This document shows positions 1,699-20,493 of a stretch of DNA of 64,000 nucleotides, one piece after another; the stretch's first letter is position 1; every line of letters begins with the position of its first letter. The stretch is taken from assembly GCF_004011505.1 (NCBI RefSeq), contig NZ_SAUN01000001.1, forward strand, positions 2,604,001 to 2,668,000. The letters are read 5' to 3'. Both the position numbers and the translations under genes were made by a program. This stretch comes from Nonomuraea polychroma (lineage in GTDB: Bacteria; Actinomycetota; Actinomycetes; Streptosporangiales; Streptosporangiaceae). Under the pieces are notes generated by a model. That model was not told where the DNA came from. It saw only the letters and a program-made list of their open reading frames with translations, and searched no databases.

Positions 1699-1927
1699 GG
1701 CACTCCAAGAAAACGGTTGTCCGTAATTGTGACGTATGAGGTACGTAGCGCCTGCCGATGGCTACGCGCCGCGAGCCGGAAACCTCACGATCCGCCGTCG
1801 GTCGGTCGTGCGGGCAGGGCGGCAGGAGCAGCTCGAAGCAGCCCGCGCGAGCAGGATCATCCGGATCAGCTTCAGCCGGGTCGGCAACCGCCGGCGATCC
1901 GGCGCGCGCCCTCGCGGACGGCGGATG

Positions 1928-2827: not shown

Positions 2828-2850
2828 CCCGATCACCCCAAGGCATAAAT

Positions 2851-2896
2851 TGACCCTGGGTAAGTAGCGTAGCCGATCACCTGACCAAAGGTAAGT
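2851..2896. promoter_or_regulatory. Twin TetR operators and hydrolase promoter
   Basis: Two copies of TGACC-N3-GGTAAGT occur at 2851-2865 and 2882-2896, 31 bases apart (three helical turns). Each is also an imperfect palindrome, TGACC-N3-GGTAA. On the minus strand TTACCT (2894-2889), a 17-base spacer and TACGCT (2871-2866) form a plausible -35/-10 for the hydrolase gene, so the upstream operator covers its -35. Binding by the adjacent TetR protein is inferred from position and symmetry. Confidence 0.6.
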
Positions 2897-2910
2897 CCTA
2901 GAGGAGTGTT

Positions 2911-3645
2911 ATGAGCGCTACTGACTCCGCCGAGGCGACCCCCCAGCGGATCCTCGCGGCCGCTCGCACGCTGTTCGCCACCGGCGGCTACCGCGCCACG
3001 TCCATGCAGGCCATCGCGGATCGGGTGGGCATCACCAAGGCTGCCCTCTACTACCACTTCGCCTCCAAGGACGAGATCCTGCACCGCCTTACCCTGCCCC
3101 TGCTGGACGAGCTCGAAGGGGCGCTCTCCGAGGCGGAGTCGCACGGCGATCCGGAGACCGTGCGCTGGCGGGCGATCGAGGGCTACGTCGACGTCCACCT
3201 ACGCCACCGGGAGACGCTCACCATGCTGGTCAAGGACATGACGCTGCTGGTCCAAGCGCCGGTGGCGGATCGGTTCCGCGCTGCGATCGCGCTGGCGAAC
3301 GACCTGGTCGCCGGCCCGGAGCGCGGCCTCGAACATCGTGTGCGCGCCTCGCAGGTGGTGGCGGGCCTGGCCGACCCTGTCGTGCTCTTCCGCGACGTGC
3401 CCGCCGACCGGCTCAAGCAGCTCATCCTTGACGGAGCCAGGGCCCTCCTCGGATCCGGGGCACTCCCGCCCCCCTCCCGCGGGCGAGCGCGCGGACGGAG
3501 CGGCGGCCGCCCTGCCGCCCTCAGTGAGGAGCAAGCGGCCCATGCCAGGCGCATGTACGCGTCAGGGCATGGCGTCGAGGAGATCGCCCGCCGCTTCGAC
3601 GTCTCCCGCGCGACGATCTATCGCTGTCTCAAAAACGAGATTTAG
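2911..3645 (+). CDS. TetR-family regulator with extra C-terminal resolvase-type HTH
   Basis: A 244-residue regulator with GAGGAG before the ATG. Residues about 10-58 are a standard TetR DNA-binding domain (ILAAARTLFATGGYRATSM, then ITKAALYYHF). A helical ligand-binding region runs to about 180. After a basic linker (RGRARGRSGGRP), residues about 195-244 form a second helix-turn-helix (LSEEQAAHARRMYASGHGVEEIA, RFDVSRATIYRCL) of the HTH_7 kind found at the end of Hin/resolvase recombinases. TetR proteins usually end near 190-210 residues, so this is a two-HTH architecture. It probably represses the divergent hydrolase and itself through the repeats between them. Confidence 0.88.
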   Translation: MSATDSAEATPQRILAAARTLFATGGYRATSMQAIADRVGITKAALYYHFASKDEILHRLTLPLLDELEGALSEAESHGDPETVRWRAIEGYVDVHLRHRETLTMLVKDMTLLVQAPVADRFRAAIALANDLVAGPERGLEHRVRASQVVAGLADPVVLFRDVPADRLKQLILDGARALLGSGALPPPSRGRARGRSGGRPAALSEEQAAHARRMYASGHGVEEIARRFDVSRATIYRCLKNEI

Positions 3646-4027
3646 AGATTTTGATTTCGAAACTAGGTGATCGGCGAACGCCTCGGGCCGCCACCGACGA
3701 GCAACTCGACGCCCCTCAGCTCCCCGCTGACCGGAGTGGACCTTCGTCCGCATCACCCTCGGCGTTCCCGAGATGGACACCCGGTCCCTCATCCAGGCCC
3801 CTCATCGCGGCGTTCCTGCCGTCAGAGGGTAGGAGTGAACGTAAGGCACCTCCCTGGTCCGTCCCGGCGGGGGAGAGGCCGACAGTCGGCGGGAGCACCG
3901 CTGAAAACCAGGCCAGCGGCGCAGCGGGCAGGATCGCACATCGGAAACGTGCTTTCTGTGACTGGTTGGATGAGGACGGCTGCTGTCCTCATCCAACCGG
4001 CTGTCTCGGATAAACGAGCACACTTGC
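3646..4027. other. Non-coding stretch between convergent genes
   Basis: These 382 bases separate a rightward regulator and a leftward small gene. No frame has recognisable protein motifs. The only clear structure is the hairpin listed at 3964-3998. Confidence 0.5.
3964..3998. terminator. Bidirectional hairpin terminator
   Basis: A perfect 14-base inverted repeat (GGTTGGATGAGGAC and its complement) with a 7-base loop sits just past the stop of the leftward SnoaL-like gene and about 320 bases past the TetR stop. No T-run follows, as is common in actinomycete terminators. Its place between convergent genes supports a role in both directions. Confidence 0.7.
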
Positions 4028-7915: not shown

Positions 7916-8290
7916 TCAGGCGAGTTCCGCTTGGAACATCCAGTAGTGCTTTTCGAAGACCGCGGGCCGCCGCCAACAGCGCGTCCTGCGAACCGGGCCG
8001 GCGTCGGCCGTGGCGGAGATCGCGCTGCGCGGCGTGGCATGACGGCGGCCAGGGTGTCACAGAAGAACTTGACGACATCCCGATCGTTGAGCGGGCCGAG
8101 CGGCACGACAGGCAGGCGGTCGCTGGTGGCCACGGTGGCCGCGCGCCCGTCCGGGACGCCGCCGATGGTGAGCGCCCGTTCCGCGATCACGTCGGACCGC
8201 TCTCGGGCCGCGTCGGCCGGCTCGTCGAGCTGCCGGTGCAAAGGTGAGGAAGGACGGCCCGAGGAGGTTCCCGTGGGCCTGCTGGGCTAA
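7916..8290 (-). pseudogene. Dps/ferritin-like protein relic, frameshifted
   Basis: Reading leftward from the end of the GntR gene gives LAQQAHGNLLGPSF, then after a frameshift LHRQLDEPADAARERSDVIA, ERALTIGGVPDGRAATVA and LPVVPLGPLNDRDVVKFF, the core of Dps-family miniferritins (compare HWNLLGPNF and the LGGxPDGR turn). A C-terminal-like piece appears in a third frame. The first metal-ligand helix is missing. The relic starts on top of the GntR stop codon, so that gene's end marks a recombination joint. Confidence 0.65.
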
Positions 8291-8934
8291 TCGGCCGAGG
8301 GGATGCGGGACATCATGCGCGCCATGCCATTGACCCAATTGTCGCGCAGGGCCTGTGCGGCCTTGGGAAGGTCTCCGGCGATGAGCAGTTCGGCCACCCG
8401 GCGATGCTCGGTCGCCTCCCGCTCCAGTGGGGTGTCGTCGCCCGCCAGCAGGTGGGCGTAGCGCCGCATCCCCGCCTTGACGCTGGTGATGAGGTCGAGC
8501 AGCCGCTCGTTGCGGCAGCCGCTCAGCAGCAGGTCGTGCCACTCGTCGTCGTGACGCTCTATCTCCTGCTGCTCCGCGATCCGGTCGGGGAACTCCTGGG
8601 CCATCGTCAGCAGCTTGGGCGCGATGCGGCGCAGGTGGGCGGGGTCGGAGCAGTCGAGTGCCAGCGACTCCAGCGCCGCGACGATCTCGCACAGCTCGCG
8701 GAACTCCTTGCGGGTCACTGGCGCGAACCTGAAGCCGCGACCCTGGTTGCTCTCCAGCACGCCCTCGCCCGCGAGGGTGATGAGCGCCTCGCGCAGGGGT
8801 GTGCGGCTGACGCCCAACTCCGCCGCGAGTGCGGCCTCGTTGATGTCGGTGCCCGCGGCGAAGTCGCCCCGGTCGAGCCTGGTCAGTAGCTCTTCCCTGA
8901 TCTGCTCGCGCAGCGGTCGCCGCTCGATGGGCAT
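8287..8934 (-). CDS. GntR-family regulator, FCD (FadR) subfamily
   Basis: A 215-residue regulator starting MPIERRPLREQIREELL. The winged HTH (about residues 8-70) includes TDINEAALAAELGVSRTPLR and a wing with NQGRGFRFAPVT; the rest is an all-helical FCD ligand domain with an ERHDDEWHDLLL metal/ligand helix and late HRRVAELL. FCD regulators usually sense organic acids or sugar acids and repress a divergent operon. Here the divergent operon encodes glycoside uptake and breakdown, and the shared promoter carries repeated ATACAWAATAC boxes. An upstream in-frame start at 9021 would put its N-terminus across that promoter and is rejected. Confidence 0.9.
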   Translation of the reverse strand: MPIERRPLREQIREELLTRLDRGDFAAGTDINEAALAAELGVSRTPLREALITLAGEGVLESNQGRGFRFAPVTRKEFRELCEIVAALESLALDCSDPAHLRRIAPKLLTMAQEFPDRIAEQQEIERHDDEWHDLLLSGCRNERLLDLITSVKAGMRRYAHLLAGDDTPLEREATEHRRVAELLIAGDLPKAAQALRDNWVNGMARMMSRIPSAD

Positions 8935-8972: not shown

Positions 8973-9019
8973 TTGACGCGATACAAAATACTGCACTATG
9001 AATTCTGAATACATAATAC
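8973..9019 (+). promoter_or_regulatory. Promoter of glycoside operon with GntR-type boxes
   Basis: TTGACG (8973-8978), an 18-base spacer and TATGAA (8997-9002) make a strong sigma-70-like promoter reading into the GH42 gene. ATACAAAATAC (8981-8991) lies between -35 and -10 and ATACATAATAC (9009-9019) at the likely transcription start, 28 bases apart. The second resembles the GTATnATAC pattern of FCD regulators. Repression by the divergent GntR protein is inferred. Confidence 0.65.
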
Positions 9020-9041
9020 ACCGTCTGACAAGGGAGCAGGA

Positions 9042-11012
9042 GTGAGCCTGACCCGCGTGCCCGGGCTGCTGTTCGGCGGCGACTACAACCCCGAGCAGTG
9101 GCCCGAGGAGGTCTGGGCCGAGGACATGCGGCTCATGTCCGAGGCCGGGGTCACCATGGTCACCGTCGCGGTCTTCTCGTGGTCGCGGCTGGAGCCGCGG
9201 CCGGGCGCGTACGACTTCGGCTGGCTCGACCGCGTCCTCGACCTGCTGCACGAGCATGGCATCGCGGCCGACCTCGCCACCGCGACCGCGACCCCACCTC
9301 CGTGGCTGGTCCGCGACCACCCAGAGGTCATGCCGGTCGACGCGCAGGGGGTGCGGCTGGAGTTCGGCTCGCGCCAGGGCTACTGCCCCAGTTCGCCGGT
9401 CTTCCGCGAGAACGCCGTGCGGCTGGCCACGGCCATGGCCGAGCGGTATGGCGGCCATCCCGCCCTGGCCATGTGGCACGTCGGCAACGAGTACGCCGAC
9501 CATACGCTGGAGTGCTTCTGCCCGGAGTCGGCCCGGCACTTCGGCGCCTGGCTGGAGGCCCGCTACGGCACGATCGAGTCGCTGAACGCCGCCTGGGGCA
9601 CGTCCTGCTGGGGCCAGCACTACACCGCGTTCGGCCACATCGAGCCGCCGCGCAAGGCGCCAGGCCCGATCAACCCGGCCCAGCTCCTCGACTGGCGCCG
9701 CTTCTGCAGCGACGCGCTCCTGGAGCTGTTCTCGGCCGAGCGTGACGTGCTGCGCGTGATGACCCCGGACGTTCCCGTCACCACGAATTTCATGAGCATC
9801 CTGCACGGCCTCGACTACTGGGCGTGGGCCGCGGCCGAGGATCTGGTGAGCGACGACGCCTATCCCGACCCGGCCGACGGGCAGTCGCACGTGGCGGTCG
9901 CGCTCAGCTACGACCTGATGCGCTCGCTCAAGGGGCGCCCCTGGCTGCTGCTGGAGTCGGCACCGTCGGCGGTGTCGTGGCGCGAGGTGAACGTCCCCAA
10001 ACCGCCCGGCATGATGCGGCTGCACAGCCTTCAGGCGGTGGCGCACGGCGCCGACGGCGTGATGTTCTTCCAGTGGCGTCAGGCCAAGTACGGCCCGGAG
10101 AAGTTCCACTCGGCCCTCCTCCCGCACGGCGGCACGCGCACGCGCGGCTGGCAGGACACCCTCCGCCTCGGCTCCGACCTGCGGCGGCTCGCGGAGGTCG
10201 CGGGCACGGGCACGCACGCCGAGGTGGCACTCGTCATTGGCTGGGACAGCTGGTGGGGCCTGGAGGCGCCGGAGTCGATGCCGTCCAACCGGCTCAAGCT
10301 CAAGGACCTGCTGCTCGCCTGGTACGCGCCGCTGCGCGCCCGCGGCATCACGGTCGATCTCGCGCCGCCAGACCGCGACCTGTCCGGCTACCGCGTGGTG
10401 ATCGTCCCGAATCTCTACCTGTGCACGCAGGAGCAGGCCGGGAGGCTGGCGTCCGTCACCGGCGATCTGGTGGTCGGCCCGTTCAGCGGCGTCGTGGACG
10501 CCGCCGACCGCGTCCACGACGGCGGCGCGCCCGGCCCGCTGCGCGACCTGCTCGGCGTCTCGATCGACGAGTTCTGGCCGCTCACCGACGACGCGATCCA
10601 GCCGGTGCGGTACGCGGGCGGCGCCACCGGCGTGGCCAGGACCTGGACGGAGTGGGTGCGCCTCGACGGCGACGATCCCGCGGCGGTGCTGGCCACGTAC
10701 GAGGGCGGCGACCTCGACGGCCTGCCCGCGATCACCCGCAAGGGCAACGCCACCTACGTCAGCTGCCTGCTCGACGACGTGACGCCCGTGCTCGGCGAGG
10801 TGCTCGGGGGCGTCGCGGCCGTTGAGGTGCCCGCGGGCGTGGAGGCCGTCCGCCGCCGGCGCCACCTCTTCCTGCTCAACCACACGACCACCCGGCAGCG
10901 GGTCATGCTGCCGCACCCCGGCACGGACCTGCTCACCCAGACCCGCCTGCGCGGCGACATCGAACTCGCCCCGCGTGACGCCGTAGTGCTCAGGATCGAA
11001 GGAGACACGTGA
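9042..11012 (+). CDS. GH42 beta-galactosidase-type glycosidase
   Basis: A 656-residue cytoplasmic glycoside hydrolase of family 42, the usual length. It opens LLFGGDYNPEQWP, the family's N-terminal barrel strand. The acid/base is Glu150 in WHVGNEY and the nucleophile Glu305 in LLLESAPS. A four-cysteine zinc-type site is only partly kept (CFCPES plus an isolated Cys). The middle part is the Rossmann-like trimerisation domain (VVIVPNLYL). GH42 enzymes remove beta-D-galactosyl or alpha-L-arabinosyl residues, so the exact sugar is open. GTG start with AGGGAGCAGG upstream; no signal peptide, consistent with action on imported oligosaccharides. It is the first gene of the operon and overlaps the next by GTGA. 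Confidence 0.93.
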   Translation: MSLTRVPGLLFGGDYNPEQWPEEVWAEDMRLMSEAGVTMVTVAVFSWSRLEPRPGAYDFGWLDRVLDLLHEHGIAADLATATATPPPWLVRDHPEVMPVDAQGVRLEFGSRQGYCPSSPVFRENAVRLATAMAERYGGHPALAMWHVGNEYADHTLECFCPESARHFGAWLEARYGTIESLNAAWGTSCWGQHYTAFGHIEPPRKAPGPINPAQLLDWRRFCSDALLELFSAERDVLRVMTPDVPVTTNFMSILHGLDYWAWAAAEDLVSDDAYPDPADGQSHVAVALSYDLMRSLKGRPWLLLESAPSAVSWREVNVPKPPGMMRLHSLQAVAHGADGVMFFQWRQAKYGPEKFHSALLPHGGTRTRGWQDTLRLGSDLRRLAEVAGTGTHAEVALVIGWDSWWGLEAPESMPSNRLKLKDLLLAWYAPLRARGITVDLAPPDRDLSGYRVVIVPNLYLCTQEQAGRLASVTGDLVVGPFSGVVDAADRVHDGGAPGPLRDLLGVSIDEFWPLTDDAIQPVRYAGGATGVARTWTEWVRLDGDDPAAVLATYEGGDLDGLPAITRKGNATYVSCLLDDVTPVLGEVLGGVAAVEVPAGVEAVRRRRHLFLLNHTTTRQRVMLPHPGTDLLTQTRLRGDIELAPRDAVVLRIEGDT

Positions 11013-12334
11013 CGCACCCGTACATACCGAACGCCGAATCCGGCGTGCGGGCCGAGATGCTCGCCGCGATCGGCGCGTCGAGCGTAGAGGACTTCTACGC
11101 CGACATTCCCGCGGAGCTGCGCCTGGCCCGGCCGCTAGATCTGCCCGCGCCGCTCACGGCGGAACACGACCTGGTACGCCACATGAAAGGTCTGCTGGAC
11201 CGCGTCACCGACACGGAGCAGGCGCTGAGCTTCCTCGGCCACGGCTGCTACCCGCACCACGTCCCGGCGGTGTGTGACGAGGTGAACGCGAGGAGCGAGT
11301 TCCTCACCGCGTACGCCGGCGAGCCGTACGAGGACCACGGCCGCTTCCAGGCCCTGTTCGAGTACGTCAGCATGATGGGCGAACTGCTGGAGATGGATGT
11401 CGTCAACGTCCCGACCTACGACGGCTTCCAGGCGGCCGGCACCGCCCTGCGCATGGCGTGCCGCTACACCGAGCGCTCGAAGGTCCTCCTCAGCGCCGCC
11501 GTCAGCGCCGACAAAATGAGCAAGCTGCGCGACTTCCTCGCCCCCGACATCGAGATCGTCCTGGCTCCAGTGGGGGAGGGCGGCGAGATCACGGTCGAGG
11601 CGTTCGATGACTCCTACGCCGCGATCTACCTGGAGACCCCGAACGTCTACGGCGTCGTCGAGACGCGCGGCCGCGAGCTGGCCGACCTGGCGCACGCGCA
11701 CGGCGCGCTGCTCGTGGTCGGTGCCGACCCGATCTCCCTCGGCGTGCTGGCACCGCCCGCCTCCTACCGCGCGGACATCGCCTGCGGCGACATCCAGTCG
11801 CTCGGTATGCATCAAAGCCACGGCGGCGGCCACGCCGGCTACATCGCCACCCAAGACCACGAGCCGCTGGTCGCGGAGTTCCCGTCCCGGCTGTTCGGCA
11901 TCGCACCCACGAAGGTGCCCGGCGAGTACGGCTTCGGCGACGTCTACTACGACCGCACCTCCTTCGCGCACCGCGAGGAGGGCAAGGAGTGGGTCGGTAC
12001 AGCCGCCGCCCTTTGGGGCATCACGGCCGGGGTCTATCTGGCGCTCATGGGCCCACAAGGCATCCGGGATCTGGGCGAGACGATCCTGGCCCGCACCCGA
12101 TACGCCATGGACGCCCTGGCCGCGTCGGTCACGGTGCTGCACCGCGACGCGATCCACTTCCGCGAGTTCGCCATCGAGGTGCCCTCCAGCGCTGCCCTGC
12201 TTGACGGGCTGCGCGAGCGCGGCATCTACGGCGGAGTCGCACTCGACGACCGTACGGTCCTGGTCTGTGTGACCGAACGCCACTCCATCGCCGACATCGA
12301 CCTGCTCGCCGCAGCCGTACAGGAGACGCTGTGA
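11009..12334 (+). CDS. GcvPA-like protein (glycine dehydrogenase subunit 1 homologue), divergent
   Basis: 441 residues, the normal length for the alpha subunit of two-subunit P-protein. Fold-wide similarity is clear: FLGHGCYPHHVPAV, TYDGFQAAGTALRMA, GALLVVGADPISLGVLAPP, SLGMHQSHGGGHAGYI. Canonical glycine decarboxylase instead has QAREQHIRREKATSNICT near here, replaced by SFAHREEGKEWVGTAA at about 317-332. GcvPA lacks the PLP lysine and works with GcvPB. The gene overlaps GH42 and gcvPB-like genes by GTGA, so it is co-translated with a glycosidase, not with gcvT/gcvH. A role other than classic glycine cleavage is likely; the substrate is unknown. Confidence 0.75.
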   Translation: MTHPYIPNAESGVRAEMLAAIGASSVEDFYADIPAELRLARPLDLPAPLTAEHDLVRHMKGLLDRVTDTEQALSFLGHGCYPHHVPAVCDEVNARSEFLTAYAGEPYEDHGRFQALFEYVSMMGELLEMDVVNVPTYDGFQAAGTALRMACRYTERSKVLLSAAVSADKMSKLRDFLAPDIEIVLAPVGEGGEITVEAFDDSYAAIYLETPNVYGVVETRGRELADLAHAHGALLVVGADPISLGVLAPPASYRADIACGDIQSLGMHQSHGGGHAGYIATQDHEPLVAEFPSRLFGIAPTKVPGEYGFGDVYYDRTSFAHREEGKEWVGTAAALWGITAGVYLALMGPQGIRDLGETILARTRYAMDALAASVTVLHRDAIHFREFAIEVPSSAALLDGLRERGIYGGVALDDRTVLVCVTERHSIADIDLLAAAVQETL

Positions 12335-13872
12335 ACACCACGGAGTCCTTCGGGGAGCTCCCCGTCACGCCGAAGCCGCCGCTGCGCCGCTTCCACCAGG
12401 CGCGCTGGGACGAGCCGATCATCTTCGAGCTGTCCGCGCCCGGCCGCCGAGGCATCGCCGTGCCCGAGCCCGGCGCGCCCCGCGTCGAGCTGCCCGACTC
12501 CGTGAGCCGCGCCCAGCCGCCGAAGCTGCCCGAGATGTCCCAGCTGCACGTGCTGCGACACTACCTGCGGCTGTCGCAGGAGAACCTGGGCGTCGACCTC
12601 AACATCGACGTCGGGCAGGGCACCTGCACGATGAAGTACAGCCCCAAGGTCAACGACAGGTTCGCCGCCGCCATCGCCGAGCTGCACCCGCTCCAGCACG
12701 AGGACACCGTGCAAGGCGTGCTGGAGATCTACTGGCGGCTCGAGCGCATGCTGGGGGAGATCTCCGGCATGGCGCGGGTCTCACTCCAGCCGGGCTCCGG
12801 GTCGGCAGCCATCTACGCCAACATCGCCATGATCCGCGCGTACCACGCGGCCCGCGGCGAGGCGCGCCGTGACCAGGTGATCACCACGATGTTCTCCCAC
12901 CCCTCGAACGCGGCCTGCGCCAAGACCGCGGGCTACGAGGTCATCACCCTGATGCCGGACGCCGAAGGCCTGCCCGACATCGAGGCGTTGCGCGCCGCCG
13001 TCGGCCCGCGCACCGCCGCACTGATGATCACCAACCCGGAGGACACCGGGATCTTCAACCCCCGGATCAGGGAGTTCGTGGACCTGGTGCACGCGGCAGG
13101 CGGCCTGGCCTGCTACGACCAGGCGAACGCCAACGGCATCCTCGGCATCACCCGCGCTCGCGACGCCGGATTCGACCTGTGCCACTTCAACCTGCACAAG
13201 ACGTTCTCCACGCCGCACGCCTGCGGCGGCCCCGCGGCGGGGGCGTGCGGCGTCTCGGAGGACCTGGCGCCGTTCCTGCCCGGCCCGGTCGTCGCCTTCG
13301 ACGGCGAGTCCTACCGCCTGGAGACGCCGCCCGCCTCCATCGGCAAGGTGCGGCCGTTCCTCGGCGTCACCCCGAACATCGTGCGCGCCTACGCCTGGAT
13401 CATGGCCCTCGGCGCCGAGGGCCTGCGGCAGGTCGCCGAGACGGCCGTACTCAACAACAACTACCTGATGCACAAGATCCTGCAGATCCCGGGCGCGTCC
13501 GCACCGTGGGACAGGCGCAGGGTCGAGCAGGTGCGCTACTCGTGGCAGGAGCTGTCGGAGCAGACCGGGGTGCATTCGGAGGAGATCGGCGTCAGAGCCG
13601 CCGACTTCGGGGTGCACTACTGGACCAGCCACCACCCGTACGTGGTGCCCGAGCCGTTCACGCTGGAGCCCACGGAGTCGTACTCGAAGGAGGACCTCGA
13701 CGAGTACGCGCTCATCCTGGCGCACGTGGCCGAAGAGGCGCGGCGCGATCCCGAGTTCGTCAAGGGGGCGCCGTACAACCAGACCGTCCACAAGATCGAC
13801 ATGACACCGCTCGACGACCCCAAGGAGTGGGCTCCCACCTGGCGCGCCTACGTCCGCAAGCACCTGTCATGA
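12331..13872 (+). CDS. GcvPB-like PLP enzyme (glycine dehydrogenase subunit 2 homologue), divergent
   Basis: 513 residues, a little longer than the usual 475-490. The PLP lysine is kept (Lys290 in NLHKTFSTPH). Motifs shared with GcvPB include TCTMKYSPK, ELHPLQ and PYVVPEPFTLEPTE. However, residues that are almost fixed in real P-proteins differ: AHGTNPA is SHPSNAA (189-195), YDGAN is YDQAN (262-266), and PHGGGGPG is PHACGGPA (296-303). These line the PLP/substrate site. With the preceding gene it should form a heterotetrameric PLP decarboxylase or lyase. GTG start, GTGA overlap upstream and ATGA overlap downstream. Confidence 0.75.
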   Translation: MNTTESFGELPVTPKPPLRRFHQARWDEPIIFELSAPGRRGIAVPEPGAPRVELPDSVSRAQPPKLPEMSQLHVLRHYLRLSQENLGVDLNIDVGQGTCTMKYSPKVNDRFAAAIAELHPLQHEDTVQGVLEIYWRLERMLGEISGMARVSLQPGSGSAAIYANIAMIRAYHAARGEARRDQVITTMFSHPSNAACAKTAGYEVITLMPDAEGLPDIEALRAAVGPRTAALMITNPEDTGIFNPRIREFVDLVHAAGGLACYDQANANGILGITRARDAGFDLCHFNLHKTFSTPHACGGPAAGACGVSEDLAPFLPGPVVAFDGESYRLETPPASIGKVRPFLGVTPNIVRAYAWIMALGAEGLRQVAETAVLNNNYLMHKILQIPGASAPWDRRRVEQVRYSWQELSEQTGVHSEEIGVRAADFGVHYWTSHHPYVVPEPFTLEPTESYSKEDLDEYALILAHVAEEARRDPEFVKGAPYNQTVHKIDMTPLDDPKEWAPTWRAYVRKHLS

Positions 13873-15098
13873 CGGGCGCGGCGGTGGTCGGGCTGGTCGT
13901 CAACCCCGTCGCCGGTCTCGGCGGCGCGGCCGGGCTCAAAGGCAGCGACGGCGTGGAGGTGCAGCGCGCGGCCCTGGCCAGGGGTGCCACGCCCCGGGCC
14001 GGCGAGCGGGCGGCGCGTGCTGTCCGCACGCTGATGGCCCGCTGTCCCGGCACCCGGGTGGTCACGGCGCCGGGCCCGATGGGCGAGGACAGCGCGCGCG
14101 CCTCCGGGGTCCCGTGCGGCCTGGTCCGGACACTGTCCGTTGACAGATCTGCCGGGGCGTCTTCCGGCTGGTCCGCCGCCGGGACGAGCGCGGAGGACAC
14201 GCGGCGCGCCGTGGCCGCGCTGGCAGGGGTGGACCTGCTGCTGTTCGCGGGCGGCGACGGGACGGCACGCGACGTGCTCGACGCGGTCCGCGCGCTCGGT
14301 GGCCAGGCGCCGCCCGTGTTGGGCGTCCCGGCCGGGGTGAAGGTGTACTCCGGCTGCTTTGCCGTCAGCCCGGCCGCCGCCGGATTCGTCGCGGCGGAGT
14401 TCGACCCGGCGCGCACGGCCGAGGCCGAGGTGGTGGATCTCGACGAGGACGCCTACCGCCGCGGCCTGGTCAGCCCCCGGCTGTACGGCAGCCTGCGCGT
14501 CCCCGCCGTCCGCGCCGCGCTGTCGGGGCGCAAGGCCGGGTCGTCCGGCGTGGCGCCCGCCACAGCCGAGGGCGTCGCACGGGAGGTCGTGGCCAGGATG
14601 TGGCCCGGCGTCCGTTACGTTCTCGGGCCGGGCGCGACCACGCGGGCCGTCGGCCGTGCGCTGGGCCTCGCCACCACGCTGCTCGGCGTGGACGTGGTCG
14701 AACGCGCGCCCGAGGGCGGTCGTGGCGGCCGTCTGGTGGCGGCGGACGTCGCGGAGACCGAGCTGTTCGGCCTGGTCAGCGGCAAGGAGTCGGTGCTGGT
14801 TCTGTCGGTCATCGGCGGGCAGGGGTTCGTGCTGGGGCGCGGGAATCAGCAGGTGTCGCCCCGGGTGCTGGACGCGGTGCTCAATGGGGGCCAGAAGGAC
14901 GGCTCCGGCTCGAGCGAGCGGCTGCTCGTCCTGGCCACCCAGCAGAAGCTCGCGGCGCTGAAGGGACGGCCGCTGCTGGCCGACAGCGGCGACGAGGACC
15001 TCGACAAGAAGCTCGGCGGGCACGTCCAGGTGATCACTGGATACCGCGAAAGCACGATTTATCGCATTTGTGCGGCAAGTGAGGAGTTCGACGGATGA
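13869..15098 (+). CDS. ATP-NAD kinase / AcoX-like kinase
   Basis: 409 residues of the AcoX/ATP-NAD kinase-like family. It starts with VVGLVVNPVAGLGG, carries the nucleotide-binding GGDGTARDVLDAV near residue 130-140, and later GVPAGVKVYSGCFAVSP and a long C-terminal lobe ending YRESTIYRI. AcoX proteins are named from acetoin-catabolism clusters; their reaction is poorly defined. In this operon it might phosphorylate a nucleotide or a small metabolite released by the preceding enzymes (inference). It overlaps both neighbours by ATGA, so strict co-expression is expected. A short Ala/Gly/Ser-rich insertion (about 90-120) is unusual. Confidence 0.8.
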   Translation: MTGAAVVGLVVNPVAGLGGAAGLKGSDGVEVQRAALARGATPRAGERAARAVRTLMARCPGTRVVTAPGPMGEDSARASGVPCGLVRTLSVDRSAGASSGWSAAGTSAEDTRRAVAALAGVDLLLFAGGDGTARDVLDAVRALGGQAPPVLGVPAGVKVYSGCFAVSPAAAGFVAAEFDPARTAEAEVVDLDEDAYRRGLVSPRLYGSLRVPAVRAALSGRKAGSSGVAPATAEGVAREVVARMWPGVRYVLGPGATTRAVGRALGLATTLLGVDVVERAPEGGRGGRLVAADVAETELFGLVSGKESVLVLSVIGGQGFVLGRGNQQVSPRVLDAVLNGGQKDGSGSSERLLVLATQQKLAALKGRPLLADSGDEDLDKKLGGHVQVITGYRESTIYRICAASEEFDG

Positions 15099-15856
15099 AG
15101 ACGCTCGAAGGCAAGGTTGCGATCGTCACGGGCGGCGCCTCGGGCATCGGGCGGGCCACCGCCCTGCTCTTCGCCAGGGAGGGCGCCCGGGTGGTGGTCG
15201 CTGACATCGATGCGGCCGGCGCGGACGCCACCGTGGCGCAGATCGTCGCCGAGACGGGAGACGCGACCGCTGTGGCGGTGCGGGCCGACGTTTCCGACCC
15301 CGAGGACTGCCGACGCGTCGTCGGCGCCGCCGTCGAGACCTTCGGCGGCCTGCACGTCCTGTTCAACAACGCGGGCATCATCCGCCGCACTACCGCGCTC
15401 GACCTCGACGTCGACGAGTGGGACCGCGTCATGGCGGTCAACGTCCGTTCGGTGTTCCTCATGTGCAAGCACGCCATCCCCGCGATGAGCCAGGGCGGCT
15501 CGATCGTGAACACAGGGTCGGGATGGGGCCTCAAAGGCGGCGGCAACGCCATCTCGTACTGCGCCTCCAAGGCGGCCGTGGTCAACATGACCCGCGCGCT
15601 CGCCATCGACCACGCCAAGGCGGGCATCCGGGTCAACTCCGTCAACCCCGGCGACACCGACACGCCCATGCTGCGCGACGAGGCCCGCCAGCTAGGTGAG
15701 GACTGGGCCGCCTTCAAGTCCGACGCGGCAGACCGGCCGATGGGTCGCGCGGGCACCCCGGACGAGATCGCCCAGGCCGTGCTCTTCCTGGCCAGTGACG
15801 CGGCCAGCTACATCACCGGGTCCGCCCTCGTCGTCGACGGCGGCGGGCTCGCCTGA
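15095..15856 (+). CDS. Short-chain dehydrogenase/reductase
   Basis: A classical 253-residue SDR: cofactor loop TGGASGIG (12-19), Asp at the end of beta-2 (VVVADIDAA), which favours NAD over NADP, NNAG in strand 4, Ser in VNTGSGWG, catalytic Tyr155 and Lys159 in YCASK, and C-terminal GSALVVDGGG. It resembles FabG/glucose-1-dehydrogenase-like enzymes that oxidise sugar or hydroxyacid alcohol groups. It overlaps the AcoX-like gene by ATGA and precedes the ABC importer by 57 bases, so it probably oxidises an intermediate of the imported glycoside. Confidence 0.9.
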   Translation: MKTLEGKVAIVTGGASGIGRATALLFAREGARVVVADIDAAGADATVAQIVAETGDATAVAVRADVSDPEDCRRVVGAAVETFGGLHVLFNNAGIIRRTTALDLDVDEWDRVMAVNVRSVFLMCKHAIPAMSQGGSIVNTGSGWGLKGGGNAISYCASKAAVVNMTRALAIDHAKAGIRVNSVNPGDTDTPMLRDEARQLGEDWAAFKSDAADRPMGRAGTPDEIAQAVLFLASDAASYITGSALVVDGGGLA

Positions 15857-15913
15857 CACTCCGATCCACCCGCCTCACCCACACCCCCCACGCAACCCCC
15901 GAAGGAGCCGACC

Positions 15914-17197
15914 ATGAACCGTGCCCTGGCAGTCCTGGGCATCCTCGCCGTCGCGACGACCGCGTGCAGCGGCAGTGGCGGGAACGTCCCGGGCATGAGC
16001 AGCGGATCGGGCCAGGTCACCATCCGCTGGTCCACATGGGGATCGGCCGAGGACATCAAGCTCTACGAGAAGTTCACCGAGAACTTCGAGAAGCGCCACC
16101 CCGACATCAAGCTCAAGCTGGAGCCGGTCGCCAAGTACGAGGACTACCACCCCAAACTGCTCGCCCAGCTCACCAGCAAGACCGCCCCCGACGTGTTCTT
16201 CGTGGGCGACGACAACATCGGCAAGTTCGTCTCCGCCGGGGTGCTCACACCGCTCAACGACAAGCTGGCCGGCCCCTCCTCCAAGAGCAAGCCCGAGGAC
16301 TTCTTCGAGGGCATCTACGGCGGCGCCAAGAAGGACGGCCAGATCTACGGTGTCCCCAACGACACCAACCCCGAGGTGCTCTGGTTCGACAAGAAGGCGC
16401 TCAAGGACGCCGGGATCACCGAGGACCCCGCCGCGCTCAACGAGGCCGGACGGTGGACCATGGCCACGTACCTCGACATGAACGCCAAGCTCAAGGCCGC
16501 GGGCAAGGCCGGGTCGATCTTCTGGAACTGGTACGGCTCCACGTACTCCATGATCAACGGCTTCGGCGGGAAGGTCTGGGACGGCGGCAAGTTCGTCGCC
16601 ACCACTGACCTCAAGGCACGCGCGGCCCTGCAGGCTCTGGCCAAGGGCTACCAGGACAAGACCTTCCTCAGCGCAGACCTGCTGCCCGACAGCAACGGCC
16701 CGAGCACGCAGTTCCTCAAGCACAAGGCCGGCTTCTACGCCGGCGGCCGGTGGATGATCGACTCCCTGAAGAAGGGCGGCGAGCTGGACGACTACGACAT
16801 CGTGCCGTTCCCCTCGCAGACCGGCCAACCCATGCCCGGCGCGGTGGCCGCCTCCTACCTGGCGCTCAACAAGGACACCAAGCTGCCCGAGCAGGCGTAC
16901 ACCTTCCTCACCGAGTTCGTCAGCAAGGATGGCCAGCTCATCAGGCTCAAGGACGGCGGTGCCGTGCCGTCCGTGAAGGGCGCCGAGCAGATCGTCCTCG
17001 CCGGCGGCTACCCCGCCCACGCCCAGACCTTCCTCGACGTGCGCGACACCGGCTTCGCGAACTACCCCGAGGAGGTCGCCGTGCCCGGCCTCACCGCCGA
17101 CATCAACGAGCACCTGATGAAGGTGTGGACCGGTAAGGTTGGCTTCGACGAGGGCATGACCCAGCTCCAGAAGCTCGTCGACGGCAAGCTGGGCTAG
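15914..17197 (+). CDS. Sugar ABC transporter substrate-binding lipoprotein
   Basis: 427 residues. The N-terminus MNRALAVLGILAVATTAC is a lipoprotein signal with the modified Cys18 (loose lipobox TTAC). The mature part is a family-1 extracellular solute-binding protein: VTIRWSTWGSAED, RHPDIKLKLEP, LLAQLTSKTAPDVFFVGDDN, GKYYGVPN-type QIYGVPNDTNPEVLWFDK, and FYAGGRWMID. It would capture an oligosaccharide outside the membrane and deliver it to the two permeases downstream. AGGAG precedes the ATG. No ATPase gene is present; many actinomycetes use a shared MsiK-type ATPase elsewhere (known of the family, not seen here). Confidence 0.92.
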   Translation: MNRALAVLGILAVATTACSGSGGNVPGMSSGSGQVTIRWSTWGSAEDIKLYEKFTENFEKRHPDIKLKLEPVAKYEDYHPKLLAQLTSKTAPDVFFVGDDNIGKFVSAGVLTPLNDKLAGPSSKSKPEDFFEGIYGGAKKDGQIYGVPNDTNPEVLWFDKKALKDAGITEDPAALNEAGRWTMATYLDMNAKLKAAGKAGSIFWNWYGSTYSMINGFGGKVWDGGKFVATTDLKARAALQALAKGYQDKTFLSADLLPDSNGPSTQFLKHKAGFYAGGRWMIDSLKKGGELDDYDIVPFPSQTGQPMPGAVAASYLALNKDTKLPEQAYTFLTEFVSKDGQLIRLKDGGAVPSVKGAEQIVLAGGYPAHAQTFLDVRDTGFANYPEEVAVPGLTADINEHLMKVWTGKVGFDEGMTQLQKLVDGKLG

Positions 17198-17199
17198 CC

Positions 17200-18126
17200 G
17201 TGACCGTCCTCACGCGGGCCCGGCCCCGCACGGTCCACCGGGCGCGGTCCGTGCGCAACCGCGACGGCTGGTGGGCCGCGTTCTTCCTCGCGCCGCAGGT
17301 CGCCGCGCTGCTGGTGTTCCTCGCCTTCCCACTCGGCTTCGCCGTTGTGCTGGCGTTCATGCGCTGGGACGGGCTCGGGCAGAAGGAATGGGTCGGCTTC
17401 GACAACTTCGCCGCCCAGCTCTCCGATCCCGAGTTCGGGCTGGCGGTCTGGAACACGGTCAAGCTGGCGCTGCTGACCGTGCCCTTCGGGCTCGGCCTCG
17501 CGCTGCTCATCGCGGTCGCGCTGAACAACGTCAAGGGCGGTGGCTTCTACCGGGTGCTGTACTTCCTCCCGGTGGTCACCAGTTCGGTGGCCGTCGCGCT
17601 GATGTGGCAGATCATCCTGGCCGGCGACGACTACGGCGTGCTGAACGCGTCGCTGGAGCGCTGGTTCGGCATCAGCGCCCCCGACTGGCTCGGCGGCCCC
17701 GGCTGGGTGATCGTGGCCGTCGCCGTCGTGACGATCTGGTCGTCGCTCGGCCTCAACGTGGTGATCTTCCTGGCCGGGCTCCAGACCATCCCGCCGCAGA
17801 TCGTCGAGGCCGCCCGCATGGACGGCGCGGGCAGCCTGCGGATCTTCCGCTCGGTCACGCTGCCGCTGCTCTCGCCGACGATCTTCTTCTCCACTGTCGT
17901 CGCGGTGATCAGCTCGTTCCAGGCCTTCGACCAGATCTACGTGCTGGTGGACCCGGCGGACAACGAGGGCGCGAGGACGATCGTCTACCAGGTCTACGAG
18001 CTGGGCTTCAAGGACTTCCGGTTCGGCATGAGCAGCGCGGCCGCGCTGATCCTCCTGGTCCTGACGCTGCTCGTGACGCTCGTCCAGTTCGCGGCGCAAA
18101 AGCGCCTCGTCCACTACGACTCGTGA
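17200..18126 (+). CDS. Sugar ABC transporter permease, MalF/UgpA type
   Basis: 308-residue inner-membrane permease with about six helices, a basic N-terminal cytoplasmic tail and the EAA loop EAARMDGAGSLRIFRSVTLP that docks the ATPase. Helix 1 (FFLAPQVAALLVFLAFPLGF) and the periplasmic FVGFDNF-like GFDNFAAQ segment are typical of carbohydrate importers of the CUT1 group. GTG start two bases after the binding-protein stop. Forms a heterodimer with the next gene product. Confidence 0.93.
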   Translation: MTVLTRARPRTVHRARSVRNRDGWWAAFFLAPQVAALLVFLAFPLGFAVVLAFMRWDGLGQKEWVGFDNFAAQLSDPEFGLAVWNTVKLALLTVPFGLGLALLIAVALNNVKGGGFYRVLYFLPVVTSSVAVALMWQIILAGDDYGVLNASLERWFGISAPDWLGGPGWVIVAVAVVTIWSSLGLNVVIFLAGLQTIPPQIVEAARMDGAGSLRIFRSVTLPLLSPTIFFSTVVAVISSFQAFDQIYVLVDPADNEGARTIVYQVYELGFKDFRFGMSSAAALILLVLTLLVTLVQFAAQKRLVHYDS

Positions 18127-18136
18127 GGGGGCCGGG

Positions 18137-18958
18137 ATGCGACCCAGGCAGGTAGCCCTGCACGCCGCGCTCTCTCTCGGCGGGCTGGCGATGCTGTTCC
18201 CGTTCGTCTGGATGCTGCTGACGTCGTTCAAGGGCGTGCGGCAGATGCTGAACAACCCGCTCGACTGGCTGCCCCACCCGTGGCGCTGGGAGAACTACCC
18301 CGACGCGCTCGGGGCGATGCCGTTCGGAACCGCGTACTGGAACAGCTTCTACATCGCCGTGCTGAACGTCACGCTCACGCTGCTGACCTCGGCCATGGCC
18401 GCCTACGCCTTCGCCCGGATCAGGTTCCGCGGCTCAGGTGCGCTGTTCGTGGTGTTCCTGGCCACCCAAATGGTGCCCGCGCAGGTGACGGTCGTGCCGC
18501 TCTACCTGATGCTGGCCAGGTTCGGCTGGATCGACTCGCACCTGTCGCTCATCGTGCCGACCATCGCGAACCCGTTCGCGGTGTTCCTGCTGCGCCAGTT
18601 CATCAGGGCCGTCCCCGTGGAACTGGAGGAGGCCGCCAGGATCGACGGGGCGAGCCGCTGGCGCTGCTTCTGGCACGTCGTGCTGCCGAACATCCGCCCC
18701 GGCCTTGGCGCACTCGGCATCATCGCCTTCCTGGCGTCCTGGAACGCCTTCTTCTTCCCGCTGATCTTCCTGAACTCGCCCGAGCTGGCCACGGTGCCGC
18801 TGCTGCTCAGCCAGTTCTCGGGCCAGCGCACGGCCGTGGACTACGGGCTCATCCTGGCCGCCTCCGCGATCGCCGTCGTGCCGACGCTCATCGCCTTCCT
18901 CGTCGGCCAGCGGAAGATCATCAACTCGATGGCCGCTTCCGGCCTGGGAGGTCGCTGA
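18137..18958 (+). CDS. Sugar ABC transporter permease, MalG/UgpE type
   Basis: 273 residues, six predicted helices. The CUT1 signatures are present: an early MLLTSFKG, WNSFYIAVLNVTLTLL, AYAFARIRFRG, and the EAA loop EEAARIDGASRWRCFWHVVLP. It partners the MalF-type permease ten bases upstream. The stop overlaps the next start (TGATG), tying the importer directly to a cytoplasmic glycosidase. Confidence 0.93.
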   Translation: MRPRQVALHAALSLGGLAMLFPFVWMLLTSFKGVRQMLNNPLDWLPHPWRWENYPDALGAMPFGTAYWNSFYIAVLNVTLTLLTSAMAAYAFARIRFRGSGALFVVFLATQMVPAQVTVVPLYLMLARFGWIDSHLSLIVPTIANPFAVFLLRQFIRAVPVELEEAARIDGASRWRCFWHVVLPNIRPGLGALGIIAFLASWNAFFFPLIFLNSPELATVPLLLSQFSGQRTAVDYGLILAASAIAVVPTLIAFLVGQRKIINSMAASGLGGR

Positions 18959-20493
18959 TGCCGGACCTTCGCGAACGCCCGTTCACCGACTGCGGCTCGC
19001 GGCTGCTGGTGATGGCGGCGGACGACGGCTCGCTCTGGATCGCCAGAGCCCTGTACGAGACCAGGCTCGCCGACGCGACCGTGCTCACCGGCCTGCGGAT
19101 CCTGTCGGGGAGCGGCGAGCTGCCGGTGCTGCGGGTGCTGCCGGACCGCGTGGAGTTCGCGGCCGGCGTGGCCATGGCCTTCGCGGGACCGGACACGCTC
19201 GTCCTGACCGGTGCGGGCGCGCGGGCCGTGTGGGACGGCGGCGAGGCCGACATCGACGGCTGCGTCACCCTCGTCGGCCCGGATCGGGCGACGCACGACG
19301 CGGCGGCGGTGCTCGGCGCGGCCGCCGCACGGTGGCGTGACTGGTTCTCCCGCATGCCCGCCGTGCCCGCGGACCTGCGCGAACGAGCGGAGGACGCGTG
19401 GTGGACGCTGGCGGTGAACGTGGTGCGGATCCAGGACCGAGAGGCACTCGTCCCCTCCAAGAACGGCTACGTCGGCCTGTGGAACTGGGACTCCTACTTC
19501 CACGCCATCGCGCTCCGGCACGCCGACCCCGTTTTGGCCAGGGAGCAGATCCGCATCCTGCTCGACAACCAGCGCCCCGACGGTCTGATCCCCGACGTGG
19601 TCCACGACCACGGCGTACTGGCCGAGACCACCGACCTGCCCCGCTCCGACCTCGTCAGGTTGGCCGCCCACGTGGGCGGCGAGCCGATCGGGGACGTCGT
19701 CCCCGTCACCAAGCCGCCGCTCACCGCCTGGGCGGTGTGGAAGATCCACGAGGTGAACCCCGACCCCGCCTTCCTCGCCGAGGTCTACGAGCCGCTGGCC
19801 CGCTCCCAGGAGTGGTGGTTCAGGCACTCCGACCCGGACGGCGACGGCCTGGCCGAGTACCTGCACCCGTACTCGTCCGGCCTGGACGACAGCCCCATCT
19901 GGGACGCCGGCCCCCGCGCCGAGCCGCCCGACCTGAACGCCTACCTCGCTCTCCAGTACGACCGCCTGGGCGATATCGCGCAGGCGCTCGGCAAGGATGC
20001 CGTACCGTGGCGAGCCAGGGCGCAGGCGCTGGTGGACCGCGTGATCGCGCGCCGGTGGAACGGCACGAGGTTCGCCACCGTGGTCGGCGGGCGCGAGGCG
20101 GGCGTGCGCACCCCGCTGGAGTTGATGCCGCTCTTCACCGGGAGGCTCCCCGCAGGGATCGCGGACCGGCTCGTCGCCGACCTACGCTCGCCCAGCTTCT
20201 GGGCCGAGCACCCGGTACCGACCGTCGCCTTCGACGACCCGAGATTCGACCCCGAGGCCATGTGGCGCGGACCGGTCTGGCTGAACGTCAACTACCTGCT
20301 CATCGACGGCCTGCGCCGCTCGGGGCATCAGGGGACGGCCGCCGAATTACGCGAGCGCACGCTGGCCATGGTCCGCGACGGTGGCGGTCTCCACGAATAC
20401 TGGAACTCGCTGACCGGCCGCCGCGCGGGCCGTGCGACGACCGCCTTCGGCTGGTCGGCCGCCCTCTTCCTGGACCTCGCCCAGGAGGGCTGA
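18958..20493 (+). CDS. GH63/MGH1-like glycoside hydrolase
   Basis: 511-residue (alpha/alpha)6-barrel glycosidase. Key segments are GLWNWDSYFHAIALRHADP, EYLHPYSSGLDDSPIWD (acidic residues of the active site), PPDLNAYLALQYDRL, MWRGPVWLNVNYLLIDGL and a final EYWNSLTGRRAGRATTAFG, the pattern of GH63 and the mannosylglycerate-hydrolase-like MGH1 domain. Members cleave alpha-glucosidic or alpha-mannosidic bonds, including glucosyl- and mannosylglycerate. No signal peptide. Being last in the operon, it should act with GH42 on the imported substrate, suggesting a compound with at least two glycosidic linkages (inference). Confidence 0.85.
   Translation: MPDLRERPFTDCGSRLLVMAADDGSLWIARALYETRLADATVLTGLRILSGSGELPVLRVLPDRVEFAAGVAMAFAGPDTLVLTGAGARAVWDGGEADIDGCVTLVGPDRATHDAAAVLGAAAARWRDWFSRMPAVPADLRERAEDAWWTLAVNVVRIQDREALVPSKNGYVGLWNWDSYFHAIALRHADPVLAREQIRILLDNQRPDGLIPDVVHDHGVLAETTDLPRSDLVRLAAHVGGEPIGDVVPVTKPPLTAWAVWKIHEVNPDPAFLAEVYEPLARSQEWWFRHSDPDGDGLAEYLHPYSSGLDDSPIWDAGPRAEPPDLNAYLALQYDRLGDIAQALGKDAVPWRARAQALVDRVIARRWNGTRFATVVGGREAGVRTPLELMPLFTGRLPAGIADRLVADLRSPSFWAEHPVPTVAFDDPRFDPEAMWRGPVWLNVNYLLIDGLRRSGHQGTAAELRERTLAMVRDGGGLHEYWNSLTGRRAGRATTAFGWSAALFLDLAQEG

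Follow-up and report, generated by a model that had tools for sequence, protein, structure and literature searches.

P-proteins of glycine cleavage, which also exist as the two-subunit pyridoxal phosphate (PLP) enzyme GcvPA/GcvPB, carry out a chemistry that makes an aminomethyl carbanion. In animals, hydroxylysine is catabolized by hydroxylysine kinase and then by the phospholyase PHYKPL, and AcoX, a protein of the ATP-NAD kinase superfamily, has a role in acetoin operons. Here we describe a nine-gene operon of Nonomuraea polychroma in which a GcvPA-like (PA) and a GcvPB-like (PB) protein, an AcoX-type kinase and a short-chain dehydrogenase/reductase (SDR) are encoded as a cassette between a GH42 glycosidase gene on one side and the genes for a sugar-binding protein (SBP), two permeases and an MGH1-like glycosidase (MGH) on the other. 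The operon was analysed within a window of 64,000 nucleotides (nt), the whole stretch of DNA examined, from NZ_SAUN01000001.1 in the 11.5 Mb single-contig genome, and the closest named relatives at the locus were from Nonomuraea. The best explanation is that these genes make up a regulon dedicated to one small glycoside, the glycoside of an amino compound. That there is such a regulon and that its P-protein is non-canonical are, taken jointly, well supported, and we regard the two together as very probable.

The divergent GntR/FCD regulator and an operator-like 15-mer, TGWATWCWGAATACA, belong to the unit. At no more than one mismatch, this 15-mer was found in a single place in the 11.5 Mb genome, and the window held three matches where 0.01 were expected. 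Among 51 divergent regions of relatives, the 15-mer was exact in 31 and had one mismatch in 14, two in five and three in one, so that 50 of the 51 were within two mismatches, while all 253 control windows from the same loci had at least four. This count is partly circular, since the motif was read off part of the same divergent regions, and for this reason the sites at importer units constitute the independent result. In loci from Microbacteriaceae, Propionicimonas and Ruania, the binding protein, permease and MGH genes form a separate unit, and the 15-mer was present within 350 bases upstream of it, with no more than two mismatches, in all 16 loci whose unit start is covered (L059, L060, L061, L064, L067, L068, L069, L071, L075, L077, L081, L082, L084, L085, L095, and L104); two further loci of this kind were left out, as the binding-protein gene was cut at its start. 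Because one operator-like sequence precedes both operons, the sugar genes and the PLP cassette, and with them sugar removal and PLP chemistry, appear from the sequence to form one regulon in actinobacteria. Over 1.04 Mb of actinobacterial loci there were 86 matches with no more than two mismatches, 78 of which were labelled by the script as preceding GH42, SBP, or PA. Of the remaining eight, L054 has two, next to its regulator gene, and L084 has two, ahead of its SBP gene; three precede a second binding-protein gene, and one is close to GH2 in L104. The first-pass annotation had assigned the PLP enzyme to the sugar operon, and the conserved gene order, the overlaps between genes and the common operator-like site all agree with this assignment.

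Two variants of the arrangement were observed. Three Microbacterium loci (L074, L087, and L093) carry a second set of binding-protein and permease genes between MGH and the regulator, with an operator-like match of its own upstream, and thus the regulon may have two importers. In Streptomyces silaceus (L058), GH42 and a related importer diverge from PA-PB with one operator-like match (two mismatches) between them, and AcoX and SDR were unmatched within 5 kb.

Relatives of the locus were collected by scanning named genomes with six peptide patterns of the window GcvPA, and the best 80 of 81 loci were retained. This set is biased to relatives of that protein and many of its loci are short, and the absences given below are valid for the stretches covered. 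The cassette core, the PA/PB pair with AcoX and usually SDR, was found in Actinomycetota, Chloroflexota, Pseudomonadota, Synergistota, Heimdallarchaeota, and Bathyarchaeota, including loci from Burkholderiales, Oceanospirillales, and Synergistaceae. In actinobacterial loci with at least 4.5 kb downstream of PA, PB was present in 47 of 47 and AcoX and SDR in 46 of 47 each; the corresponding numbers in other phyla were 18, 15, and 12 of 18. Taken over all loci with enough sequence, the kinase was present in 61 of 65 and the SDR in 58 of 65. In the actinobacterial loci with at least 7 kb upstream and 8 kb downstream, the regulator was matched in 44 of 44, GH42 and permease 1 in 43 each, and MGH in 42. 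The gene order is therefore not confined to this strain, as it might have been, and its conservation across many genera, with no gcvT or gcvH match, is what the first-pass annotation would have counted in favour of a distinct pathway. The distribution is patchy: among 394 sampled genomes of the class, all within Actinomycetota, 13 carry the cassette at E 1e-125, the window's own genome included, and 381 do not; at this threshold it was not found in either of the two further congeneric genomes sampled. In seven Heimdallarchaeota loci (L072, L079, L086, L098, L100, L107, and L114), an SDR gene lies directly before PA, and a second SDR gene adjoins in all of them but L098, lying on the opposite strand in two cases (L072 and L114). 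If the two SDRs differ in handedness, they could together invert a hydroxyl there. In addition, a plus-strand open reading frame (ORF) of 506 amino acids adjoins 12 Microbacterium cassettes; its SDR matches were weak, and the opposite strand had stops in the one frame read.

The PA/PB pair exceeds the NCBIfam cut-offs for GcvPA (438 versus 364 bits) and GcvPB (596 versus 441 bits), and by name it is GcvPA/GcvPB. It was compared with a canonical set made up of the 27 best-scoring Actinomycetota proteins, the fused GcvP of this genome and two plasmid copies, all of which were assumed to cleave glycine. Duplicate, short and overlong rows were dropped before counting, which left 117 of 120 PB and 116 of 121 PA rows, and only residues 1-450 of the fused GcvP entered the PA alignment. 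In a PB tree of 88 of the 117 rows, obtained by a quick search without bootstrap after Microbacterium, Agromyces, and Nonomuraea had been thinned, 58 cassette proteins (50 of group I and eight of group II, a second version of the cassette described below) were divided from 30 canonical ones by one branch with an SH-aLRT of 100 and a length of approximately 2 changes per site. The PLP lysine, K290 of PB, which aligns to human K754, was present in every row (79 of group I, eight of group II, and 30 canonical), and H190, D263, and H289 were likewise kept in all 117 rows. Many PB positions invariant in the canonical set were replaced in the cassette rows; group I has E-Q-V-R in place of the canonical H-E-F-V, and at the position of human W897 all 30 canonical rows have Phe, 77 of the 79 group I rows have His, and all eight group II rows have Glu.

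The changes in PA affect two regions that are described for the human enzyme GLDC. The canonical loop T-P-Y-Q-x-E-x-S-Q-G-x-L reads A-G-gap-E-x-Y-x-D-H-G-R-F in group I, and the equivalent of the active-site loop residue Y164 of human GLDC is a gap in all 79 group I rows and all eight group II rows and Tyr in all 29 canonical rows, whereas the equivalent of the neighbouring Y161 is kept in all 79 group I rows and not in group II. Y164 is listed as an active-site residue in PMC7259800, and the 43-residue offset between the GLDC chain and the numbering of that paper was checked by hand on K754, Y161, and Y164. Furthermore, ten positions of the canonical motif Q-x-R-E-Q-H-I-R-R-x-K-A-x-S-N are changed in group I: ten PA columns within 314-328 that are 93-100% conserved in the 29 canonical rows have another commonest residue there, and half of the group II rows keep Lys at position 324. 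The motif covers the equivalents of Q366, I372, R373, and K376, which in the same paper are included in an H-protein interface taken from a docking model. The natural reading of these replacements is that the pair would be a lipoyl-independent enzyme with a new substrate, and it is probably not an enzyme of glycine and H-protein.

The same genome has housekeeping copies of the glycine cleavage genes elsewhere. A fused GcvP, in an open frame of 947 amino acids, is encoded at 3.37 Mb, and the pair is thus not the genome's only P-protein, an outcome that would have spoken against a separate function. The only GcvH-family match and the best GcvT match lie side by side at 11.44 Mb, consistent with the first-pass statement that neither gene is near the operon. 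The housekeeping gcvP is unlinked from this gcvT-gcvH pair, and there were several further GcvT-domain matches in the genome. With two GcvT proteins and one GcvH (a Sphingomonas protein alone) as queries at E 0.001, neither the 1.44 Mb covered of the 80 loci nor a further 21 cassette loci gave a match to gcvT or gcvH. The same search of 29 canonical loci as a control gave a hit in eight, 27 of the 29 covering flanks of just about 1.5 kb; both genes were present in L122, whose flanks are wide, and L123 is the source of two of the queries.

Group II was found on plasmid records of Rhodococcus, Paracoccus, Gemmobacter, Roseicitreum, Antarctobacter, Sphingomonas, and the haloarchaeon Natronosalvus, and also in several sampled Actinomycetota. 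Its PB has an identity of approximately 45-50%, and its AcoX gene, if one was found, is located upstream of PA; the Natronosalvus homologue of AcoX is outside the cassette stretch, elsewhere on the same plasmid. The records annotate these genes as gcvPA, gcvPB, and ATP-NAD kinase or NAD kinase. Within the PB tree, the group II rows form a single branch that lies inside the remaining cassette rows, group I, and therefore group I is not a clade. Neighbours of group II include APC permeases, an AMP-ligase, an ArgE/DapE deacylase, an amine oxidase, a class III aminotransferase, an aldehyde dehydrogenase (ALDH) resembling succinate-semialdehyde dehydrogenase (SSADH), polar amino-acid ATP-binding cassette (ABC) transporter genes, and a 3-hydroxyacyl-CoA dehydrogenase-like protein. 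A hydroxyproline pathway was considered for group II and rejected: genes resembling dihydrodipicolinate synthase, SoxA/SoxB, and ALDH were suggestive, but no hydroxyproline enzyme was among the NCBIfam names shown at E 1e-25.

The neighbours of the cassette in other phyla bear on the amino side. The names given here are those of the closest models, most of them below their cut-offs, and cover just the loci scanned. L088 has a lysine/arginine/ornithine-type binding protein (213 versus 256 bits) with HisP/HisQ-like partners, and such a binding protein was also found in L142 (103 versus 256 bits), a group II locus from actinobacteria. L089 has a peptide-type importer with a protein of the histone-deacetylase family, and L055 a Dpp-type importer together with a DoeB-like deacetylase (128 versus 403 bits) and a BhcA-like aminotransferase. 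An Xaa-Pro peptidase-like protein accompanies an MGH1-like glycosidase in L090, and an NhaC-type transporter lies beside the cassette in L097. In L065 (Anaerolineaceae), a gene for an MTTB-family methyltransferase (151-1617) is located directly upstream of the pair, which hints at a methylated amine as the substrate there. In Heimdallarchaeota and Bathyarchaeota, no such importer pattern was seen among the few cassette neighbours scanned. Since amino-acid or peptide importers and amide hydrolases lie beside the core in several non-actinobacterial loci, the core of the substrate is probably an amino compound, and the common denominator is an amino compound with a varying cap, either sugar or acyl. 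The first-pass annotation had suggested a glycoside with an amino acid or amine as its non-sugar part, and the importers and amide hydrolases of other phyla fit this suggestion.

The nine genes of the operon were found at the place and in the order given by the first-pass annotation (Table 1), and the tight coupling it described was also seen: four of the eight junctions are 4-nt overlaps (GTGA, GTGA, ATGA, and ATGA), a fifth is TGATG, and the remaining gaps are 57, 2, and 10 nt. Its description of a full CUT1 importer did not hold, for a profile search showed no ABC ATPase gene among the nine, and the importer is therefore incomplete on its own. Elsewhere in the window, at 24.0-26.5 kb, ORFs resembling an archease/RtcB RNA-ligase pair were recognised by eye.

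Table 1. Features of the operon and its divergent regulator, in window coordinates
Feature	Position	Strand	Basis
GntR/FCD-family regulator, divergent	8287..8934	-	Pfam GntR 64.6 bits, FCD 48.7 bits; start 8934 read from sequence
Operator-like site, two overlapping copies of TGWATWCWGAATACA	8999..9020	no strand	between regulator and GH42
GH42 beta-galactosidase-type glycosidase	9042..11012	+	PF02449 499 bits
GcvPA-like subunit, non-canonical	11009..12334	+	NF001696 438 bits, PF02347 203 bits
GcvPB-like PLP subunit, non-canonical	12331..13872	+	NF003346 596 bits
AcoX-type (ATP-NAD kinase superfamily) kinase	13869..15098	+	PF01513 63 bits, PF20143 58.6 bits
SDR oxidoreductase of the cassette	15095..15856	+	PF13561 239 bits
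CUT1-type sugar/oligosaccharide binding protein (SBP)	15914..17197	+	PF01547 115 bits
ABC permease 1	17200..18126	+	PF00528 77.5 bits
ABC permease 2	18137..18958	+	PF00528 75 bits
MGH1-like / GH63-type alpha-glycosidase	about 18958..20493	+	PF22422 258 bits

On the sugar side, the best solved relative of the GH42 protein was the beta-galactosidase LacZ 9ta3 (574 bits), and that of the SBP was an arabino-oligosaccharide-binding protein (69.6 bits). In Ruania (L104), a gene for a GH2 LacZ-type beta-galactosidase (430-3666), with an operator-like match (two mismatches) at 473, adjoins the importer unit, and GH42 had no match. This is an apparent replacement of GH42 by an unrelated family, and for this reason it may be the beta-galactosidase activity rather than the family that is kept. 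The AlphaFold model of MGH (pLDDT 91.9) had as its best fold match 3w7w, the E727A variant of E. coli YgjK with 2-O-alpha-glucosyl-galactose (E 2e-24), followed by GH63 mannosylglycerate and glucosylglycerate hydrolases. D309 and E479 of MGH, invariant in 13 rows including a YgjK-type protein, are putatively the catalytic acid and base. YgjK has a high Michaelis constant for nigerose, and its natural substrate is assumed to be another alpha-glucoside, according to PMC9061262. An MGH1-like glycosidase gene also adjoins the cassette in L090 and a YgjK-type one lies near it in L106. Glucosylglycerate was considered as the substrate and seems a less likely candidate: MGH scored below the cut-off for glucosylglycerate hydrolase (108 versus 550 bits), and a beta-galactosidase-type enzyme accompanies it.

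The AcoX-like protein had no other match in the genome at E 0.001. It has the NAD-kinase N and C domains with the GGDG motif, and the motifs GGDGT and GRGN-Q were invariant in 22 and 19 aligned rows, respectively. It was also considered whether this protein is an NAD kinase, a reading disfavoured by the fold search, which gave weak matches. A sphingosine-type kinase plus lyase was tried and rejected, as the fold match to SphK1 was weak and the importers suit soluble compounds.

A pathway can be proposed from these elements, in which the aglycone, the order of the steps, the independence from H-protein, and the PLP reaction are inferred. The binding protein and the permeases would import a sugar-capped amino compound, from which the MGH1-like enzyme would remove an alpha-linked sugar and GH42 a beta-galactose. 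The AcoX-type kinase might then phosphorylate the freed hydroxy-amino compound, and the GcvPA/GcvPB-like heteromer, no longer using the lipoyl H-protein, would cleave the phosphorylated amino alcohol, so that phosphate and ammonia leave and an aldehyde results; the SDR could take a neighbouring alcohol or ketone step. As a tentative choice of aglycone, we propose 5-hydroxy-L-lysine, taken up as the collagen unit Glc-alpha1,2-Gal-beta-O-hydroxylysine and degraded by the kinase and a PLP lyase. Hydroxylysine was chosen because it explains the kinase, the PLP enzyme, the basic amino-acid importers, the amide hydrolases (for N-acylated forms), and also the pair of beta-galactosidase and alpha-glucosidase in soil actinobacteria. 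Collagen hydroxylysine carries Glc-alpha1,2-Gal, as stated in PMC8626586, and the ligand in the best fold match of MGH is this disaccharide, which counts weakly for hydroxylysine. Some of the non-actinobacterial neighbours suit a basic amino acid, again weakly. It is rather unlikely, in our estimate, that the scheme extends to a pathway widespread in bacteria and archaea, and annotated as glycine cleavage, in which hydroxylysine is broken down by an AcoX kinase together with a PLP heteromer derived from GcvP and free of H-protein, with the collagen glycoside as the form taken up in actinobacteria.

Several observations weigh against the proposed scheme. The SDR is without a clear role when a kinase and a phospholyase are assumed, and the P-protein family is known for alpha-decarboxylation, not for elimination. 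The pair in the window still passes the NCBIfam cut-offs for GcvPA and GcvPB, and within 5 kb AcoX was missing in 4 of 65 loci and SDR in 7 of 65. Neither collagenase genes nor hydroxyproline genes were shown next to the cassette. By sequence, MGH is nearer to 2z07 of Thermus, its best match (E 6e-30), than to YgjK (E 9e-21), and the alpha-glycoside it acts on is therefore not fixed; going by its related entries, 2z07 is a mannosylglycerate hydrolase. The fold search with the AcoX model gave no PDB match at E 0.001; its top match (E 0.02) was a protein that binds molybdenum cofactor, and the weak matches included diacylglycerol and sphingosine kinases. Finally, the contexts of group II, namely the class III aminotransferase, the SSADH-like ALDH, the 3-hydroxyacyl-CoA dehydrogenase-like protein, the AMP-ligase, and the amine oxidase, may indicate that the substrate is a different one or that the enzyme is a decarboxylase.

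It is, in our estimate, about as probable as the hydroxylysine scheme that the regulon and the non-canonical PLP pair are as described and the aglycone is another hydroxy-amino compound, such as a hydroxy amino acid from a plant or bacterial glycoside, or an amino alcohol. The regulon and the branch evidence fit it equally, the specificities of the glycosidases are not fixed, and APC permeases, an AMP-ligase, and an amine oxidase occur in some group II loci; the basic-amino-acid importer of L088 (below its cut-off) and the Glc-alpha1,2-Gal fold match favour hydroxylysine instead, albeit weakly. The chemistry of the pair could also differ, and it might be an H-protein-free amino-acid decarboxylase or might cleave an aminomethyl ketone that the SDR produces; in the case of hydroxylysine, 5-oxolysine would give glutamate and an aminomethyl unit through the PLP intermediate that also occurs in glycine cleavage. 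This would agree with the carbanion chemistry of P-proteins and would use the SDR, present in 58 of 65 loci, better than the kinase and phospholyase scheme does, and the class III aminotransferase, amine oxidase, and SSADH-like ALDH beside group II suit an amine product. However, it leaves the kinase beside the pair in 61 of 65 loci unexplained, and we consider it unlikely.

Two further accounts are far less probable. A bona fide second GcvPA/GcvPB, working on glycine with the housekeeping GcvH, would be in line with the passing of both equivalog cut-offs and with the presence of GcvH and GcvT in the genome, but the separate branch, the loss of the Tyr and of the modelled H-interface motif, the lack of a gcvT/gcvH match in the 80 loci, and the presence of a housekeeping GcvP make it highly improbable. 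Likewise, the cassette might be an unrelated amino-acid module inserted into an ordinary sugar operon with no shared pathway, since in other phyla it is found at loci without GH42 or CUT1 matches. The operator-like site on both operons where these are separate, in 16 of 16 loci, and the MGH1-like and YgjK-like glycosidases near the cassette in L090 and L106 too, speak against such an insertion, to which we give very little credence.

The family memberships of these proteins are known, whereas the combination of genes and the remodelled P-protein branch appear to be undescribed within the literature searched. In open-licence full text, taken by titles and abstract openings among the matches listed and with subscription papers outside the scope, we found no paper joining AcoX with GcvPA/GcvPB and none on bacterial catabolism of glycosylated hydroxylysine. 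Because the pair passes the NCBI naming cut-offs and the group II plasmid copies bear the names GcvPA/GcvPB, metabolic reconstructions, including those of Heimdallarchaeota and Bathyarchaeota with relatives of the cassette, may credit organisms with glycine cleavage on the basis of an enzyme that probably does otherwise. The proposed scheme would also give AcoX-type kinases a testable role and define a new type of reaction in the P-protein family. If the substrate is glycosylated hydroxylysine, the operon would be a microbial route for a component of collagen; if the whole scheme is true, it would be an independent invention, from unrelated enzymes, of the kinase and phospholyase route of animals, with a definite role for an AcoX-type kinase.

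In comparison with known systems, MGH shares its fold with E. coli YgjK and the GH63 mannosylglycerate and glucosylglycerate hydrolases, at approximately 18-26% identity in the fold alignments, and its putative acid and base positions recur in a YgjK-type row. The kinase resembles AcoX of acetoin operons and the ATP-NAD kinase superfamily in its NAD_kinase N and C domains and its GGDG motif and differs in being linked to a P-protein-like pair. The proposed scheme has in common with hydroxylysine catabolism of animals a kinase followed by a PLP lyase; here, however, the kinase is NAD-kinase-like and the PLP enzyme GcvP-like, and the animal kinase and phospholyase belong to families unrelated to these. 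Finally, the pair is like the GcvPA/GcvPB glycine dehydrogenase in belonging to a two-subunit PLP family, in its PLP lysine and several PLP-site residues, and in passing the NCBIfam cut-offs. It differs from that enzyme in having a branch of its own, in the replacement of the active-site loop and the modelled H-interface motif, and in a genetic context with no gcvT or gcvH match, in which it is linked instead to an AcoX kinase and an SDR.

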